From NCBI GenBank assembly GCA_030673895.1, contig JAUTCR010000059.1, positions 1 to 64,000 on the forward strand: 64,000 nucleotides of DNA, written 5' to 3'. Shown here one piece after another: positions 1-11,327 of this stretch; the stretch's first letter is position 1; every line of letters begins with the position of its first letter. Under the pieces are notes generated by a model. It did no database searches. It saw only the letters and a program-made list of their open reading frames with translations, and was not told where the DNA came from. Position numbers and translations under genes: made by a program. This DNA comes from Verrucomicrobiota bacterium JB023 (GTDB taxonomy: Bacteria > Verrucomicrobiota > Verrucomicrobiia > Verrucomicrobiales > Akkermansiaceae).

Positions 1-22
1 CGACCAGATCCTCATGTAAGCC

Positions 23-412
23 CTACCAGACCCGCTTCACGCCATAGGCGTCGAAGCGGTGGTCCTTCCCCACCACACTCCAGCCTTCTGACAAAGACTG
101 GGCAATCAACATCCGGTCGAACGGATCGCCGTGATGCGGCGCGAGCTGCGTAATCAGCTTGCAATGACGGGCCTCAATCCCCTCTTGCCGCACCCCATAC
201 CGAGCCACCATTGCCGGCAGCTCGACGTCCCAGTCTTCGACCAAATGAAAGTCAAAACCAGCACGACCCAACTTCAAACCAATCTCCCAGAGCGACACCA
301 CCGAATAGCACACCGACTCCGCCTCATCCATCGCCTCCCGCGCCGCAAGAGAGAGACGAGAATCCCCCACAAACCACCACAACAACGCATGAGTATCGAG
401 CAGCAGCTTCAT
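23..412 (-). CDS. vapC: PIN-domain toxin, VapC family
   Basis: A 129-residue PIN-domain protein, the usual size of a VapC toxin. PIN proteins are Mg2+-dependent ribonucleases that usually cut tRNA or rRNA. The first catalytic acid lies in the LLLDTHALLWW motif (Asp6), the second is Glu43 in SLWEIG, and the later acids lie in GDPFDRMLIAQ and GKDHRF. The start overlaps the antitoxin stop by four bases (ATGA at 409-412), which indicates translational coupling. All catalytic positions look intact, so the toxin is probably active. The cellular target cannot be inferred from the sequence. Confidence 0.93.
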   Translation of the reverse strand: MKLLLDTHALLWWFVGDSRLSLAAREAMDEAESVCYSVVSLWEIGLKLGRAGFDFHLVEDWDVELPAMVARYGVRQEGIEARHCKLITQLAPHHGDPFDRMLIAQSLSEGWSVVGKDHRFDAYGVKRVW

Positions 413-678
413 TCCTTTTCCTCATCGGCCGAGGCAGCAAAATCGCGCCCGATCTGCTCGTCTACTTCCGGGCGACTGGTCAGATACTCCACCGCATCCT
501 CCGAGATCAATCCTCTGCCAACCCCAAAGCCATCAGACAGCTTGGGCCTGTAGGCCTCCTCCTTCACCAGCCTCACCACCGGCTTGTCCCTCCTGGCAAT
601 GATCACCTCTTCGCCAGCTTCCACCGCCGCGATGAGCTTCGATAGCTGGGTCTTGGCCTCATGAATGGTCACCGTCAT
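409..678 (-). CDS. Phd/YefM-type antitoxin partner of VapC
   Basis: An 89-residue protein beginning MTVTIHEAKTQLSKLI, the classic N-terminus of Phd/YefM antitoxins, which bind DNA through this region and block the toxin with a flexible C-terminal tail. The acidic C-terminus (SADEEKE) fits. The open frame extends upstream to 774, but the family N-terminus begins at Met 678, so that start is used. The gene is first in the pair and overlaps vapC by four bases. A 12-bp perfect palindrome lies 17 bases upstream of the start and could be its own operator. Confidence 0.92.
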   Translation of the reverse strand: MTVTIHEAKTQLSKLIAAVEAGEEVIIARRDKPVVRLVKEEAYRPKLSDGFGVGRGLISEDAVEYLTSRPEVDEQIGRDFAASADEEKE

Positions 679-709: not shown

Positions 710-964
710 GTCCAACTCCAAGAGGCCATATCCTCCCCTGCCACTCCGCGTCTCCCCGTCTGCCGCCTGCACAACTTCGTCTACTGCCCGCGCCTTTTCT
801 ACCTGCAATGGGTGGAGAATCTCTGGGTCGAAAACGACGATACCGAAGTCACCCATTTCAAATTTAAGATGACCTACCGACGCATGCTCGACGTGCAAGT
901 GCGGCAACTCTGGCGCTACCTGCGTAGCGATGCCGACCGCTATCACGGCTTCACCACTCGCTAG
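710..964 (+). pseudogene. Remnant of a cas4-cas1 fusion gene with a large internal deletion
   Basis: The frame is open from 710 to the TAG at 962-964 but has no ATG or GTG at a sensible start. It reads first as the N-terminus of Cas4 (LHNFVYCPRLFYLQWVEN..., with the first Fe-S cysteine in YCPRLFY). It then jumps directly into the last 35 or so residues of Cas1 (MTYRRMLDVQVRQLWRYLR...GFTTR). In intact Cas4-Cas1 fusions, typical of subtype I-G (formerly I-U), about 450-500 residues separate these parts, so nearly all of both nuclease domains is missing. The family match is from recognised motifs. A cas2 stub follows 66 bases downstream in the expected order. Confidence 0.78.
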
Positions 965-983
965 CTAGTGACTCCGGTAGGGA

Positions 984-998
984 GGTCTCGCCGAGACC
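984..998. repeat. Short inverted repeat between cas1 and cas2 remnants
   Basis: GGTCTC-gcc-GAGACC, a perfect 6-bp stem, lies in a GC-rich stretch (GGGAGGTCTCGCCGAGACCG). It resembles small REP-like palindromes and may be a second mobile palindrome in the decayed locus. The evidence is weak on its own. Confidence 0.35.
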
Positions 999-1030
999 GC
1001 CGCCAGGATACACTCACCTACACCCAAACA

Positions 1031-1099
1031 ATGCAACGCACCCGATACATCGTCTCCTACCACATCGCTCACCCCAAGCGTCTCCTCCGGATTCATGGA
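1031..1099 (+). pseudogene. cas2 5' fragment
   Basis: The ATG at 1031 opens a frame beginning MQRTRYIVSYHIAHPKRLLR, the typical first beta-strand and helix of Cas2 (compare YLVCYDIxDPKRLRRV). Cas2 forms the structural core of the Cas1-Cas2 spacer integrase. After about 23 residues the match stops where the left arm of a 28-bp inverted repeat begins (1093), and the remaining 65 or so residues are absent. In the first strand, His replaces the usual Asp (SYHIAHP for xYDIxDP). The position directly after the cas4-cas1 remnant supports the call. Confidence 0.72.
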
Positions 1100-1198
1100 G
1101 CACCGGCGTCCCGCCGGTTTCTGCCCCCCGCAGTGCCGATAATCCTAAGAAGAAGCTATGAAAGTGCTTAAAACCGGCGGGACGCCGGTGCTCCATGA
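1093..1198. repeat. Inverted-repeat element (REP/MITE-like) truncating cas2
   Basis: The arms at 1093-1120 and 1171-1198 are perfect 28-base inverted complements (core GGAGCACCGGCGTCCCGCCG) around a 50-base spacer. There is no coding capacity, so the element is a REP pair or non-autonomous miniature element rather than an insertion sequence. It begins exactly where the cas2 match ends. A hairpin with a related core (GCACCGGCGT) forms the terminator at 11362-11391. Confidence 0.8.
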
Positions 1199-1235: not shown

Positions 1236-2618
1236 TCAGCCGACGCGTAAGGCGTTGAGTAGCTTTTCGTGGATGCCTCCGAAGCCTCCGTTGCTGAGGA
1301 TGGCGACGAGGTCGTCTTCCTTCGCTTCGGCCGAGACCCAATCGACAATTTCTTCCACGGAGCCTAACAACCGACCGCTTCCTCCAGCCTCGTTCACTTC
1401 CTCAATCAGCTTGGGAACGTCTAACAAATCGTCTTGCGCAATCTTACCCGCCTCCAGGACGGGAGGGACGATGGCGATATCGGTACCAGCCAAGGCTTCG
1501 GCCAGATTGCCCTTGTGGGCTTCCTGACGAAGGGTATTCGAGCGGGGCTCAAGGATGATGATGAGCCGTTGTCCGGGGTAGCCCTCACGAAGTCCGGTGA
1601 TGACTTGTCCGATGGCCGTCGGGTGATGGGCAAAGTCGTCGATGACGGTAACGCCACGCTCAATACCCCGCACTTCCTGGCGGCGCTTGATACCTGCAAA
1701 GGAGGAGAGCCCTTCTTGGATCTCCTCGTCAGTGAGTCCCGCCTGTCTGGCGACGCAGATGGCCATGGCGGCATTGCGAACATTGAATTCGCCCGTCATG
1801 GGCAAGGTGAAGGGCACCTCATTGAGCTGGAAGCTCGCCTGTCCGCGAGAGTAACTGATTCCGGTGATTCGTTGGCCGCAATTCTCACCCGTGCCCACGA
1901 GCTCGATGGGACAATGGGCATCTGCTACGAGAGAGACCGTATTTGCGCAGTCCCCATTGAGGAAGGCCACGCCATTGCGAGGAACAGTGAGCAAGAGACG
2001 GCGGAAGGTGAGCAGGATCTCGTCGAGGTTGTTATAGATATCGGCGTGATCGAACTCGATGTTGTTGATGACGGCGATCTCGGGGAGATAGTGGAGGAAC
2101 TTGGAGCGCTTGTCGAAGAAGGCAGTATCGTATTCATCGCCTTCGAGAATGACAAAGTCCGACTCAGTGAACTCGGCTCCCCGCTCGAAGTTTTTCGGCA
2201 CGCCTCCGATCATGTGTCCGGGGTTGCGGTCGGCAGACTTGAAGAGCCAGGTGGTGAGGGTGCTGGTGGTCGTCTTGCCGTGCGTCCCTGAGATGACGAT
2301 GTTGCGCTTGCCACGGAGGAAGTGCTCCTTGAGCACCTCGGGCATGGACTGGTAGTTGCGCTTTTGCTCCAGGGCGGCTTCGGCTTCTTCATTACCCCGG
2401 CTGATGGCATTGCCGACGATGATGATGTCTGCGGCGGAGGGAAGGTTCTCCGCCTTGTACCCTTCGAAAAGTTCGATGCCCTCACCCTCGAGGAAGGTGG
2501 ACATGGGGGGATAGACATTGGCGTCGGAGCCGGTGACCTTATAGCCGGCACGCTGCATGGCGGCGGCCACGGAGCCCATCGCGGTCCCGCACACGCCAAT
2601 GAAGTGGAAGTGTTTCAC
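1236..2618 (-). CDS. mpl: Mpl: UDP-MurNAc:L-Ala-gamma-D-Glu-mDAP ligase
   Basis: A 460-residue Mur-ligase-family enzyme that joins the recycled tripeptide L-Ala-gamma-D-Glu-meso-DAP to UDP-MurNAc in cytoplasmic peptidoglycan recycling. The N-terminus has the nucleotide-fold motif HFIGVCGTAMGS and the Mpl-specific VTGSDANVYPPMSTFLE. The ATP-binding loop GTHGKTTT is at residues 111-118. The central NNIEFDHADIYN and the late DDFAHHPTAI motifs are typical of Mpl/MurC. Length and start fit the family. It indicates a DAP-type wall that is actively recycled. Confidence 0.95.
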   Translation of the reverse strand: MKHFHFIGVCGTAMGSVAAAMQRAGYKVTGSDANVYPPMSTFLEGEGIELFEGYKAENLPSAADIIIVGNAISRGNEEAEAALEQKRNYQSMPEVLKEHFLRGKRNIVISGTHGKTTTSTLTTWLFKSADRNPGHMIGGVPKNFERGAEFTESDFVILEGDEYDTAFFDKRSKFLHYLPEIAVINNIEFDHADIYNNLDEILLTFRRLLLTVPRNGVAFLNGDCANTVSLVADAHCPIELVGTGENCGQRITGISYSRGQASFQLNEVPFTLPMTGEFNVRNAAMAICVARQAGLTDEEIQEGLSSFAGIKRRQEVRGIERGVTVIDDFAHHPTAIGQVITGLREGYPGQRLIIILEPRSNTLRQEAHKGNLAEALAGTDIAIVPPVLEAGKIAQDDLLDVPKLIEEVNEAGGSGRLLGSVEEIVDWVSAEAKEDDLVAILSNGGFGGIHEKLLNALRVG

Positions 2619-5542: not shown

Positions 5543-8011
5543 ATGGGGACCGTCCGCCCACTGCTTCTCTTTTCCCTCGTCTCCAGTTGGTCCTTTGCCC
5601 AGTTACCAACCAATGCGCCCTTCCAGACCGTTCCCACCCAGGAAGAGCCCGAGGAGGCGGATTTGACCGAGGGCATCATCGCACCCGAGTTCGTGATGCC
5701 GAAGGACTTCACCCTCACTTGGGATGAGTTCGAGGGGCCGACCTTAATCGGAGAGGGAGCGGCTGACATCAAGGTCTCGGGGAATATTCGCGCGAAGTCG
5801 GGCAACGGAGACACCCTCCGCTCGGAAAAAGCCTCCCTGAGCCTGTCCGGCGAGGGCGGAACGGTGATCACCTTCCGCCAGAACGTCCGGATGCGTGGAG
5901 CCAATGGCATTGAGGTCTTCGCCGACCAAGCCATCCTTGATGAGAGGGAAAAGACGATCACCTTCCGGGACAAGGTGGCGGCCTATCAGGGCACCGTGGT
6001 CCACCGTGGCGATTCCGCCGTCTATCATTACGGTAAGAGCACCTTCGAGACCCGGGGCCTAAGGACAGCCTTCGCCCCGCTGCACCTGGAGGCCGGTCAG
6101 CTGGAAGCCGTCGAAGGAGCAGATGGTAAGCTCATCTACAAGGCTAGGAATGCCGGGGTCACCACCCATGATGCGGAGACCCCCAACTACTGGCTCAGAG
6201 GCGATGAAATCACGCTCATCCCTGATGAGCGTATTCGCTATGACAACATGAAGCTCTACGTGGGAGGGACGCCGATCTTTTGGCTCCCGACCCTCAGCCA
6301 CGACTTGGACGGGCAATTCAACTACCGCCCCACCGCCGGTTCCAAATCCATCTGGGGCCCCTACCTGCTGAATTCCTATACCCATCGTATCGGGGGGTTG
6401 AAGGATTCCGCCACGGGCCTTCGCAGGGATGAACCCTATGAGGCCACTTGGAATGCCGACATCTACACCTTGCGCGGCCTCGGCACCGGCCTCACCATTG
6501 AAGAGCTCGCCCGGAAGGATAACCCCAATCTCGGCTGGCTCTCTCTCTACTCCATCTACGACTTCGACCCTTCGCAAAAGAGCTCTTCCGAGCCGCGCGA
6601 TGACTTCAGCGACAATCACCGCTACAAGGTGCAGATCCGCCAGCGATTGCAGGCAGACTGGCTGCCGGGAGCCACGGGGCACCTTGATGCCAATCTCACC
6701 CTTCTCTCCGATCTCTACTATTTGGAGGACTTTGAGCCCGGCATCTACCGGACCCAGTATCAGCCGGACAATGTCATCTCGCTCACCCAGCAATGGGATG
6801 ATGCCCATCTCCTGACGGCATGGACCCGGATCCGCCTCAATGATTTCTATCAGACTGACTCCCGTTACCCGGAAGTCGCCTTGGACCAGGTTCGCCGCCC
6901 CCTCTTTGATTCCCCCATTCTCCATGAGAGCCAGAACCTCTTCGGAATCTATCGGGAAGACGTCTCCAGCCTACAGGCCGAGCAGTTGCGGGAGGAAGCA
7001 GCCAACGCTTCGGTCTCCGATGACCGGAGGGAGCAGATCGAGACCCTGCTGGATGGGGCCGGCTTTGCGCGCCTCCACACCTACCACGAGTTTTCCGTCC
7101 CACTGAAGCTGGACTCCGGCCTGCGCATTACCCCCCGGGCAGGAGCTGGCTACACGCGATACGACTCCGTCAATGGCTCGGTCGATAGCTTCTCCCGCAC
7201 CCACTATCATGCGTCTCTCGATGCGTCCTTGAAGTTCACCAAGCGATATCCCGAGTGGATGTCCAAGCAGTGGGGCCTGGACTCCGCGCTCCACGTTCTT
7301 CAACCTTACGTCACCGCCACCTTGCTCGCCACGGATGACCCGAATGGCGCCTTCTACCCCATTGACCGGCTCACCCCATCCACCCGGCCCCGAGCCCTCA
7401 CCCCCGGCCGCTTCGCCGCTCTCGACAGTCTGGCCGATTGGCAAATCCTCCGTCTCGGCATGCGCAATACCCTGCTCACGCGGCGGAATGATTCCGCACA
7501 CGAGTGGTTCACCATTGATACCTACATGGACGTCTTTGGGGAAGACCCCGAGTTCGACCGCAACGTGTCCAATCTCTACAACGACCTCCACTGGTCGCCG
7601 CTGCCGTGGTTCGACCTGACGGTGGAGACCCAGGTCCCTCTTTTCTCGGACTCAAATTTCACCGAGTTTGCCACCGGCCTCTATTTCATGGTGAACGATG
7701 ATAGCGAAATTGGCCTCAGCCACCGCTTCCTGCGCGACCATCCCATCCTCGACGATTCCAATCGCCTGGAACTTCGCTCCTATCATCGCCTCAACGAGGA
7801 GTGGGGACTGGGCACCGAGCATGTCTGGGAATTCGCCGACTCCACACTGGAATCCCAGGAATACTCTATCCATCGCAATCTCGATTCCTGGGCCTTCTCC
7901 GCCGGAGTCTACATGCGCGACAACCTCGACGAGGACGAGTATGGCTTCCAGATCGGCTTCACCCTCACCGATTTCCCCTCCGTCGCCTTGCCATTCTCTG
8001 TCGACAATTGA
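5543..8011 (+). CDS. lptD: LptD-like LPS-assembly outer-membrane protein
   Basis: An 822-residue protein with a signal peptide (cleavage near WSFAQ). An OstA/LptA-like N-terminal beta-jellyroll follows (about residues 50-220, e.g. ASLSLSGEGGTVITFRQNVRM and ANGIEVFADQAILDEREKTI). The remaining 580 or so residues are a long beta-barrel of alternating strands. LptD forms the outer-membrane translocon that inserts lipopolysaccharide, which points to a diderm LPS-bearing cell. Length fits LptD. No lptE or surA is adjacent. The gene is divergent from the PEP-CTERM protease. Confidence 0.88.
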   Translation: MGTVRPLLLFSLVSSWSFAQLPTNAPFQTVPTQEEPEEADLTEGIIAPEFVMPKDFTLTWDEFEGPTLIGEGAADIKVSGNIRAKSGNGDTLRSEKASLSLSGEGGTVITFRQNVRMRGANGIEVFADQAILDEREKTITFRDKVAAYQGTVVHRGDSAVYHYGKSTFETRGLRTAFAPLHLEAGQLEAVEGADGKLIYKARNAGVTTHDAETPNYWLRGDEITLIPDERIRYDNMKLYVGGTPIFWLPTLSHDLDGQFNYRPTAGSKSIWGPYLLNSYTHRIGGLKDSATGLRRDEPYEATWNADIYTLRGLGTGLTIEELARKDNPNLGWLSLYSIYDFDPSQKSSSEPRDDFSDNHRYKVQIRQRLQADWLPGATGHLDANLTLLSDLYYLEDFEPGIYRTQYQPDNVISLTQQWDDAHLLTAWTRIRLNDFYQTDSRYPEVALDQVRRPLFDSPILHESQNLFGIYREDVSSLQAEQLREEAANASVSDDRREQIETLLDGAGFARLHTYHEFSVPLKLDSGLRITPRAGAGYTRYDSVNGSVDSFSRTHYHASLDASLKFTKRYPEWMSKQWGLDSALHVLQPYVTATLLATDDPNGAFYPIDRLTPSTRPRALTPGRFAALDSLADWQILRLGMRNTLLTRRNDSAHEWFTIDTYMDVFGEDPEFDRNVSNLYNDLHWSPLPWFDLTVETQVPLFSDSNFTEFATGLYFMVNDDSEIGLSHRFLRDHPILDDSNRLELRSYHRLNEEWGLGTEHVWEFADSTLESQEYSIHRNLDSWAFSAGVYMRDNLDEDEYGFQIGFTLTDFPSVALPFSVDN

Positions 8012-8082
8012 CGGCAGGCAAGATTTCGAGGTTGCAAAACTCCTGATCTCCCTATCTTCACCCGAACCAAATTTTCACCAAG

Positions 8083-8724
8083 ATGCCTGACAACACCTCT
8101 CTCATCGACCACTTCAACTGGCGCTACGCGACCAAGGTCTTCGACGCCACTCGCAAAGTGAACGACGCTGACTTGGCTACTCTGGAAGAAGCTCTCCGGC
8201 TGACCCCGTCCTCGTTCGGTTTACAGCCTTGGCATTTCCTCATCGTCACCGATGAGGAAATTCGGGAAAAGCTGTTGCCCTTATCCTGGAACCAAAAACA
8301 GGTCACCGAATGCTCCCATTATTTCGTCCTCTGCACCCGCACTGATGTCGATGTGGATTACATTGACCGCTTCGTCAGCGAGATTGCCAACGACCGCGGC
8401 ACCACCATCGAGGAGCTGCAAGGCTACCGTGACGTGATGGTTGATTTCGTCTCCCGCATGCCCTCGGTGGAGAGGCTCACTTGGGCCACCCGGCAGACCT
8501 ACCTCGCCCTGCAGCGGCTGATGGACACCGCCGCCCTCTTGGAAATCGATGCCTGCCCCATGGAGGGCTTTTCCGCGCCCCAATACGATGAGGTCCTGCA
8601 ATTATCTGAAAAGAATCTCACCGCAAGCGTCTGCTGCGCAATCGGCTATCGCTCCGCTGAGGACAAATACGCTTCCTTGGCCAAGTCCCGCTTCCCCAAA
8701 GAAGAGGTCATCTCCTACCTTTGA
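8083..8724 (+). CDS. Nitroreductase-family FMN oxidoreductase (NfsB-like)
   Basis: A 213-residue nitroreductase-fold protein. The N-terminal FNWRYATKVFDATRKV supplies phosphate/FMN-binding basic residues. LRLTPSSFGLQPWHFLIVTD is the conserved FMN-binding strand-helix. DACPMEGFSAPQYDEVL near the C-terminus is the PMEGF signature of NAD(P)H-dependent nitroreductases/dihydropteridine reductases. It probably reduces nitro or quinone compounds in the cytoplasm; the physiological substrate is unknown. It sits 71 bases after lptD. Confidence 0.93.
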   Translation: MPDNTSLIDHFNWRYATKVFDATRKVNDADLATLEEALRLTPSSFGLQPWHFLIVTDEEIREKLLPLSWNQKQVTECSHYFVLCTRTDVDVDYIDRFVSEIANDRGTTIEELQGYRDVMVDFVSRMPSVERLTWATRQTYLALQRLMDTAALLEIDACPMEGFSAPQYDEVLQLSEKNLTASVCCAIGYRSAEDKYASLAKSRFPKEEVISYL

Positions 8725-8741
8725 GGCCCTTTGCTTCATCT

Positions 8742-8770
8742 CAGGAGCGGAACTCCGGGGTCCGCTCCTG
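8742..8770 (+). terminator. Hairpin after the nitroreductase gene
   Basis: A perfect 10-bp stem (CAGGAGCGGA / TCCGCTCCTG) around a 9-base loop, 17 bases after the nitroreductase stop. There is no U-run, so it may be a weak terminator or an mRNA-stabilising hairpin. Confidence 0.45.
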
Positions 8771-8849
8771 CCTCCCCGCTCATTGAGGAAGGTACAGCTT
8801 CTTCCGGGCTCAGGCTGGACCTCCCCTCTCCTCCGGCTACAACTGCCCC

Positions 8850-11327
8850 GTGCCGTCGCTCGAAAAACCATCCGAACCTCTCTCGCCAGAAGCCGCCCTG
8901 GAGAACTTCCTCACCTGGCTCCTCGAAACCGGAATCGAGCCCTACGACCATCAGGAGAATGCGATTCTGGAACTCTTCGAGGGTAAGAACGTCATCCTCA
9001 ACACTCCCACCGGGTCGGGGAAATCTCTTGTCGCCACCGCGCTGCACTACAAAGGCCTCTGCACTGGACGCACCAGCTACTACACCGTGCCGATCAAGGC
9101 TCTTGCCAATGAGAAATTCCTCTCCCTGTGCAAGACCTTCGGACCCGACCATGTCGGTCTGATCACCGGTGATGCCACCGTCAACCCCGACGCCCCCATC
9201 ATTTGCTGCACGGCGGAAATCCTCGCCAACCTCGCCCTGCGAGATGGAGACAAGGCTCCTGTCAACGATGTCATCATCGACGAATTTCACTACTACTCGG
9301 ACCATAGCCGCGGCTGGGCTTGGCAGGTCCCGCTCCTCACCCTGCCCCAATGTCGCTTCCTCCTCATGTCGGCGACCATCGGCGATCCCCAGTTCTTCAT
9401 CAAGGAACTGGAGGATCTCACTGGTGCCCCCACGGCCCTGATTCAGTCCGACCAGCGACCGGTCCCGCTCGAATTTGATTACTCGACGACCCAGCTGGAA
9501 GAGAAAATCCAGGAACTGGCTGATGCTGACAAGGCGCCCATCTATCTGGTCCACTTCACCCAATTGGCTACAGCGCGGACCGCACAAAACCTCCTCTCGC
9601 GCAACTTCTGCTCCAAGGAAGAAAAGCAGGAAATTACCAAGACTCTAGTAGATGCTGATTTTCGCTCTCCCTATGGCAAGGAGGTGGCCAAGCTGCTGCG
9701 CAATGGCATCGGCATCCACCATGCCGGCCTGCTACCCAAGTACCGCCTCTTGGTAGAGAAGCTCACGCAAAAAGGCCTTCTCAAAGTAATCTGCGGCACG
9801 GATACCCTCGGGGTCGGAGTCAACGTCCCCATCCGTACGGTCGTCTTCACCCAGCTCTGCAAATATGATGGCAAAGGCTCCCGCATTCTCCCCGTGAGGG
9901 ATTTCAAGCAGATCGCCGGACGTGCGGGCAGGAGAGGCTTCGATGATATCGGCTACGTCGTTTGCCAAGCCCCGGAGCATGTGATCGAGAACCTCAAGCT
10001 GGAAGCCAAAGCGAAGAAGGGGAAGAAGATCGTCAAGAAGACTCCTCCCGAGCGTGGCTACGTCCACTGGGATGAGCCCGCCTACCGTAAGCTCATCGCA
10101 TCGCCCCCCGAGCCCTTGCAATCATCCTTCACCGTCACGCCCTCCTTGCTCCTCCATGTGCTCTCTCGCCAGGACGAAGATGGCTGCCAGATCCTCCGCG
10201 ATCTCATCGAGCGCTCCCACGAGACCGACGCCCGCAAAAAGAAGCATCGCATCTCGGCCCGCAAACTTTTCTTCAACCTCGTGCGAGGGAAAATTCTCGA
10301 AATTGTTCCGGCCGAGCCCGCTCAAGACACCGGCCCAGGCTACTCCATCCGCCTCCACGTCGATCTCCAGCACGACTTCTCACTCAATCAAGCCCTCGCC
10401 CTTTATCTCCTCAACACCCTTCCCCAGCTTGACCAAGAGGACCCGGACTACCCGCTCCAAGTCCTCTCCCTTGTCGAATCCATCTTGGAAAACCCCGACC
10501 TCATCCTCCGCGCCCAGGTCAACCGGGCCAAGGACGAAGCGATGGCCGAAATGCGCGAGGAAGGGCTCAACTACGACCAGCGGATGGAAGAGCTCGAGAA
10601 GATCGAATACCCCAAACCGCTGGCTGACTTCATCTACGAGACTTATAATAGCTACGTCGCTCATCATCCCTACCTGAAGAGCGAAGCCATTCGCCCGAAG
10701 TCCATCGCGCGAGAAATCTACGAGAATTACAGTAGCTTCGAGGATTACATCAAGACCTACAAGCTGGAAAAATCCGAAGCCGTCCTCCTTCGTCATCTCT
10801 CGGAAGCTTACAAAGTCCTGTCCCAGACCGTCCCCCCCTCATTCAAAACTGAAGAATTGATCGAAGCCGAAGAGCATCTCGAATCGCTTGTCCGCCACAC
10901 CGACTCTTCCCTAATCGACGAATGGGAGAAGATGGGTTCCTCCGGGGATGACAAATCGACGGCACCCGAGGAGAAAAAAACCGCACCCGCTCCTACTCCG
11001 CAACGAAAGGTCTCTCCCCATCGGGCAATCTGGGACTTCTTGAAGGCCATCTCGAGACACGACTATGACTTGGCGCTCAACTTGATCAGTGCCAGCTCCA
11101 GCGACGGTCAAGCTTGGTCAGCCGCTACGCTTCGTGAGGAGTTCGCACCCTTCTTTGAAGAAGTGGATGCCCTCCGCTTGGACCCCGAGGCCCGAAATCG
11201 CAAGCAGCTTCGTCAACAGGGAGGAAGCTTGGAACAAGCCCTTCTCGATCCGTCCTCGGAGCCCGTTGCCTTCCTCCGCTTCCATCCCGCCGAGCCCTTT
11301 CCCATCTTCGATGGCTTCATCGACTGA
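8850..11327 (+). CDS. Ski2/Mtr4-like DEAD/DEAH-box RNA helicase with DUF3516 C-terminus
   Basis: An 825-residue superfamily 2 helicase with a GTG start. The motifs run in order: Q-like YDHQENAI, Walker A TPTGSGKS (about 52-59), DEFH Walker B (about 144-147), MSATIG motif III, and the C-terminal RecA motifs [18 protein letters not shown] and [10 protein letters not shown]. The last motif is diagnostic of the Ski2-like group. The long C-terminal region (about 420-825) fits DUF3516 and includes a low-complexity Ala/Pro/Lys linker near residues 695-725. It probably remodels RNA or RNA-protein complexes; the partner is unknown. Confidence 0.92.

Follow-up and report, generated by a model that had tools for sequence, protein, structure and literature searches.

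Probable remains of a type V-B CRISPR-Cas locus around an intact Phd-VapC pair in a Verrucomicrobiota genome

Results

Organization of the locus

The window considered here is a stretch of 64,000 nucleotides from the genome of Verrucomicrobiota bacterium JB023 (contig JAUTCR010000059.1, positions 1 to 64,000). At its start lie, in this order, the tail of a cas12b gene, an intact phd-vapC pair, a gutted cas4-1, a cas2 stub, a REPIN-like element and a mpl gene (Table 1). No V-B locus was found beside the mpl orthologues of three genomes of the same genus (G001, G002 and G003), whose flank is free of cas genes. In G188, which belongs to another genus, mpl does have a V-B locus upstream, though some 750 bp distant; within this genus we recovered no relative with an intact V-B locus at the exact mpl site.

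Table 1. Features at the start of the window
Feature	Position	Strand	Remarks
Last cas12b codons, D-Q-I-L-M-stop	1..19	+	contig begins inside them
vapC toxin, PIN domain, intact frame	23..412	-	Pfam PF01850 E 2.4e-12
phd/yefM antitoxin, intact frame	409..678	-	Pfam PF02604 E 1.4e-11
Probable lost start codon of cas4-1, ATA	728..730	+	inferred
cas4-1 5' remnant, Cas4 N-terminus (LPVCRLHNFVYCPRLFYLQWVENLWVENDDT)	728..844	+	profile and alignment of relatives
Deletion junction GATACC (Asp-Thr)	839..844	+	codon alignment of relatives
cas4-1 3' remnant, Cas1 C-terminus to native stop	839..964	+	further 2-codon deletion, His-Pro-Gln-Phe to His-Phe
cas2 5' remnant, 21 codons, MQRTRYIVSYHIAHPKRLLRI	1031..1093	+	catalytic Asp to His at 1061-1063
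REPIN-like element, 106 bp	1093..1198	+	two inverted 28-nt REP arms, 50-nt spacer; truncates cas2
mpl-type Mur ligase	1236..2618	-	intact; three Mur ligase domains; outer flank of relic

The cas4-1 remnant

The frame at 710-964 is open, encodes VQLQEAISSPATPRLPVCRLHNFVYCPRLFYLQWVENLWVENDDTEVTHFKFKMTYRRMLDVQVRQLWRYLRSDADRYHGFTTR and ends at a stop; it contains no ATG, GTG or TTG before the Cas4 motif. In its portion from 728 to 964, the first ~38 codons of a Cas4-Cas1 fusion run straight into the last ~42. Accordingly, residues 15-46 align to positions 2-33 of the Cas4g/Cas1g model NF049935 (NCBIfam, 546 positions) and residues 45-84 to its C-terminal end, with a whole-protein E-value of 5.9e-16, while PADLOC Cas1g (E 4e-11) and the solved Cas4-Cas1 fusion PDB 7mi4 (E 3.6e-12, both ends aligned) are also matched. 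The Cas4-Cas1 signal is far beyond chance, and these profile, structure-database and PADLOC matches at both ends of the fusion bear out the original prediction of a decayed adaptation module made of a Cas4-Cas1 fusion and Cas2. The expectation that gene callers would miss such a relic was likewise sound, given the missing start codon; profile scans that apply family cut-offs would overlook it too, at 58 bits against a cut-off of 560.

The start of the gene is probably an ATA in place of ATG at 728: its distance to the PV(R)RLHN motif is within one codon of that in the relatives. In the remnant an Arg of this motif, PVRRLHN and otherwise invariant, has become Cys. The Asp-Thr encoded at the junction has two counterparts in the relatives, one in the NxDT of the Cas4 part and one in the LDTEV of the Cas1 part; in G119 both are spelled GATACC. 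Just after the main junction two codons (Pro-Gln in G003) are missing.

Comparison of the Cas1 tail with G003 revealed 17 synonymous and five nonsynonymous codon changes. This excess indicates that most of the divergence arose while the gene still worked and that the deletion is younger than most of it. That two indels are in frame and that no stop interrupts the 84 codons is mildly unusual for a pseudogene and counts against a relic. An open frame after two indels, with mostly synonymous changes relative to G003, could also be read as a mini-protein that selection maintains for its function, such as a small regulator that binds Cas1. We consider this very improbable, as the frame has no start codon and has lost the conserved Arg, the Cas1 tail comes without the active site and the Cas4 part without the nuclease motifs, no V-B partner was found, and an excess of synonymous changes is expected anyway if decay is recent.

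The cas2 stub and the REPIN-like element

Taken by itself, the match of 1031-1093 to the Cas2 profiles is weak (Cas2g, E 0.038). However, over 50 bp its DNA shares 82% identity with the cas2 of a genome of the same genus, and it follows the cas1 tail, as a cas2 should; both support the Cas2 assignment. Thus, the arrangement of cas2 next to cas4-1 typical of type V-B is present, as a stub of 21 codons. The Asp of the Cas2 SYDI motif is catalytic, and it is this motif in which the change from Asp to His falls.

The similarity to Cas2 runs up to the left arm of a perfect inverted repeat with arms of 28 nt (1093-1120 and 1171-1198) and ends there; the 106-bp inverted repeat folds into a long hairpin (z-score -10). 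Since the arms are dispersed, with further copies in several other parts of the genome, and since they flank a gene for a REP-associated transposase, we describe the 106-bp element as REPIN-like; it displays the REPIN feature of two inverted REPs that share sequence with the REPs flanking a RAYT gene. We also asked whether the 28-nt arms could be CRISPR repeats and ruled this out, as they are a dispersed REP. The original prediction held up for the internal deletion, for the repeat element at the Cas2 break and for the want of an intact copy in the genome.

A REP-associated tyrosine transposase lies in frame inside leuS (G000:C66, about 5862-9068; L040 363-3569) with a score of 86.6 bits, above the family cut-off, in an open frame of 1068 aa; the REPs on its flanks belong to the family of those in the window's element. 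A second REP-associated transposase (G000:C35; L039 16672-18456) scores 72.5 bits, below the cut-off of 80, and lies in frame inside an adenosine-deaminase-like frame, beside the CARF protein and the Cas1 of another CRISPR locus.

Subtype of the remnant

The fusion of V-B systems is closely related to that of type I-G (PMC9419969), and the fragments had been ascribed to the latter (I-G, or I-U). In favor of such an assignment, the best NCBIfam model carries the name cas4g_cas1g and I-G systems occur in the same order. Nevertheless, the remnants share 54-79% identity with V-B proteins and only 37-56% with I-G proteins, and in a tree from a full-length alignment the fossil groups with G003 and the V-B sequences of G119 and G115 (support 95). 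On this full-length alignment a placement of the fossil among the I-G sequences is rejected (delta lnL 47.7, AU p 1.3e-5). Both ends of a Cas4-Cas1 fusion of the V-B branch are therefore present by identity and by tree placement.

The genomic contexts of the relatives are in line with this. Across 195 genomes of the family, a search recovered full-length fusions with this level of identity to the fragments, and 10 close relatives among them all belong to genomes with a Cas12b. Profile scans identified two of the Cas12b proteins (NF033949, E 4.7e-159 and 4.5e-219), and the rest were found by Cas12b similarity. In the family relatives the neighbor of cas4-1 is a single protein, with ~1,350-1,565 codons of open frame. 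Conversely, fusions from elsewhere in the order adjoin Csb1, Csb2, Cas3g or Cas8g (two loci scanned) and are true I-G. The I-G effectors Csb1/Cas7g and Csx17/Cas8g were not found in the window's genome; I-G control loci do match the NCBIfam models. Searches for Cas7g and Csx17 likewise returned nothing in two family relatives, a first hint of another effector. Taken with the flanking cas12b end and the V-B-type arrangement of the toxin-antitoxin pair, the tree and the missing csb1 and csx17 leave an origin as an I-G adaptation module scarcely credible.

The toxin-antitoxin pair and the end of cas12b

The phd and vapC frames overlap by 4 bp, in what their Pfam matches predict to be a type II toxin-antitoxin arrangement. 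In G119 the gap between cas4-1 and cas12b holds a phd and a vapC on the opposite strand, and in G176 a phd-vapC pair stands just before cas4-1, again on the opposite strand, where the G176 contig ends. The window's VapC is 54% identical to that of G119, located between cas12b and cas4-1, and its Phd shares 56% identity with the Phd that neighbors cas4-1 in both G119 and G176; moreover, the window aligns with G119 from the end of cas12b through vapC and phd into cas4-1. Because two relatives have the same pair at the same place, we take Phd-VapC to be an original part of the V-B locus that outlived it. The toxin-antitoxin pair adjoining the relic had been noted before, as VapBC left adjacent; it is instead Phd-VapC, and part of the locus rather than a chance neighbor. 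A search of plasmids returned mainly hits to the toxin-antitoxin genes.

The first bases of the window resemble the end of cas12b in G119, with 17 of 22 identical; on either strand of 15 kb of that locus, no other ungapped placement matches as well. The distance from the cas12b stop to the vapC stop is 3 bp in the window and 4 bp in G119. Endings of the type D-[DE]-I-P-M-stop recur in the Cas12b proteins of relatives; G119 has D-E-I-P-I-stop and others D-D-I-P-M-stop. Since the contig starts inside cas12b, loss of this gene is no more than likely, and the case rests on its absence from the assembly: two Cas12b queries returned no match worth naming elsewhere in the genome, which is 97.5% complete. 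An alternative is that only the adaptation half is dead and that cas12b and an array survive beyond the contig end, as a V-B system that can only interfere and whose spacer memory is frozen. The start of the contig in the last cas12b codons, with the upstream sequence outside it, leaves room for such a system; yet a unique stretch of 4 kb should normally have assembled, the window's first 32 bases have no second copy in the assembly, and G003 likewise has no cas12b detectable by similarity search. On balance, we deem it unlikely, though a more serious contender than the other alternatives, and favor the disruption or loss of cas12b.

Array, tracrRNA and the other CRISPR locus of the genome

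G003, recorded as an uncultured Roseibacillus sp., indicates what may have lain downstream. Its contig C150 (L038 7435-9390) carries a Cas1 without the Cas4 part, an intact cas2 and a six-repeat array, and at about 7984-8009 an opposite-strand anti-repeat (26 bp, 81%) that scores above 200 shuffles, as would be expected of a V-B tracrRNA. The repeat of the G003 type is absent from the window's genome at up to three mismatches, and the stretch between cas2 and mpl (961-1240) holds no relic of a CRISPR repeat above shuffles. With the array and tracrRNA region absent, the locus is a remnant and not a working member of type V-B.

The only match to the Cas4-Cas1 fusion elsewhere in the genome is the Cas1 of another locus. 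Contig C35 encodes this kind of second CRISPR locus, with a Cas1, a TIGR02710 CARF protein and an array of 28 repeats. The earlier notion of CRISPR loss thus applies to the V-B-type module, which did decay, but not to the genome, which is not CRISPR-free. It also means that the host still had CRISPR, and it may have been able to do without V-B.

Proposed course of decay

All told, the start of the window very probably represents what is left of a type V-B (Cas12b) CRISPR-Cas locus, with a Phd-VapC pair still intact inside it. Its decay is recent and of a kind already known; the newer point is the recurrence of toxin-antitoxin modules inside V-B loci. We envisage an ancestral locus with cas12b, an opposite-strand phd-vapC, cas4-1 and cas2, probably followed by an array. 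A deletion between two GATACC copies would have removed ~470 codons of cas4-1, a mechanism that we infer from the junction; as Asp-Thr is encoded in the same phase by both copies, the reading frame would have been kept automatically. Other lesions would have removed two codons and altered the start codon, the conserved Cas4 Arg and the catalytic Asp of Cas2. Insertion of the REPIN, a deletion, or both may have taken the remainder of cas2; the region with the array and tracrRNA, as far as mpl, would have been lost as well. With these lesions, spacer acquisition from the V-B locus must be dead. The toxin-antitoxin pair in the middle stayed intact. Two of the surviving cas pieces are exactly the edges that touch it, and addiction to the pair may have kept deletions from crossing it, thereby preserving short cas edges on both sides.

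Toxin-antitoxin modules in other V-B loci

Scanning genome contigs with the V-B fusion alignment recovered 14 further loci with Cas12b. In three of them the joint between cas12b and cas4-1 is occupied by other modules: HicA-HicB in L093 (8982-10001), PemK-like and ParE-like toxins with putative partners in L095 (8418-10001), and a nucleotidyltransferase-HepT pair in L097 (5155-7111). Beside the insert the 5' end of cas4 is duplicated in L093 (98 bp, 95%) and L095 (65 bp, 97%). The same joint holds a YhcG-type nuclease in L103 (2692-3789) and a 23S rRNA intervening-sequence protein in L092 (9380-9688).

Toxin-antitoxin modules are found in 5 of 24 V-B loci (including G119 and G176); of ~55 I-G loci, at least 2 have them (Fisher p 0.024). 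The comparison is crude, with the I-G count drawn from the 25 commonest of 44 families and some I-G ORFs omitted, so that the excess is suggestive only. The literature that we found, to which most subscription journals do not belong, does not describe this pattern. It is possible, and we offer this only tentatively, that V-B loci of this group recurrently host unrelated toxin-antitoxin modules (Phd-VapC, HicAB, PemK plus ParE-like, nucleotidyltransferase-HepT) in the cas12b/cas4-1 joint as addiction guards, and that the guard survives decay and preserves the cas edges it touches.

Comparison with known systems

The locus shares with type V-B loci (Cas12b, fused Cas4/1, Cas2) the gene order and orientation, the level of fragment identity given above and the end of cas12b just upstream; it differs in its gutted cas4-1, its cas2 stub and in having no array or tracrRNA region left. 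With type I-G (Cas4-Cas1 fusion, Csb1, Csb2, Cas8g, Cas3g) it has in common a related fusion, but its sequence is more distant, none of the tested effectors is present and the tree rejects the placement. Damage to a V-B adaptation gene in a natural host has a precedent in Alicyclobacillus acidoterrestris, whose native Cas4/1 is N-terminally altered (PMC9419969); there the mutation truncates only the N-terminus, whereas here erosion of the module is near-complete. The locus offers a well-resolved case of the death of a class 2 CRISPR locus, in terms of the parts lost, the kind of deletion and the survivors. Like the REPIN/RAYT elements (PMC3116915, PMC3733652), the repeat at the cas2 break consists of paired inverted REPs, with REPs of the same family flanking a RAYT gene in this genome; unlike them, it is low in copy number and its 106-bp form occurs once.

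Finally, the CreTA guards of CRISPR (PMC9458426, PMC10097628) invite comparison. There an RNA toxin is repressed by the CRISPR effector; here the pair is a protein Phd-VapC with its own antitoxin and is not known to depend on Cas12b. In both, a toxin-antitoxin system is nested in a CRISPR-cas locus and could penalize loss of that locus. The locus suggests a testable pattern, namely that protein toxin-antitoxin modules lodged in Cas12b loci may stabilize these loci or simply exploit them.
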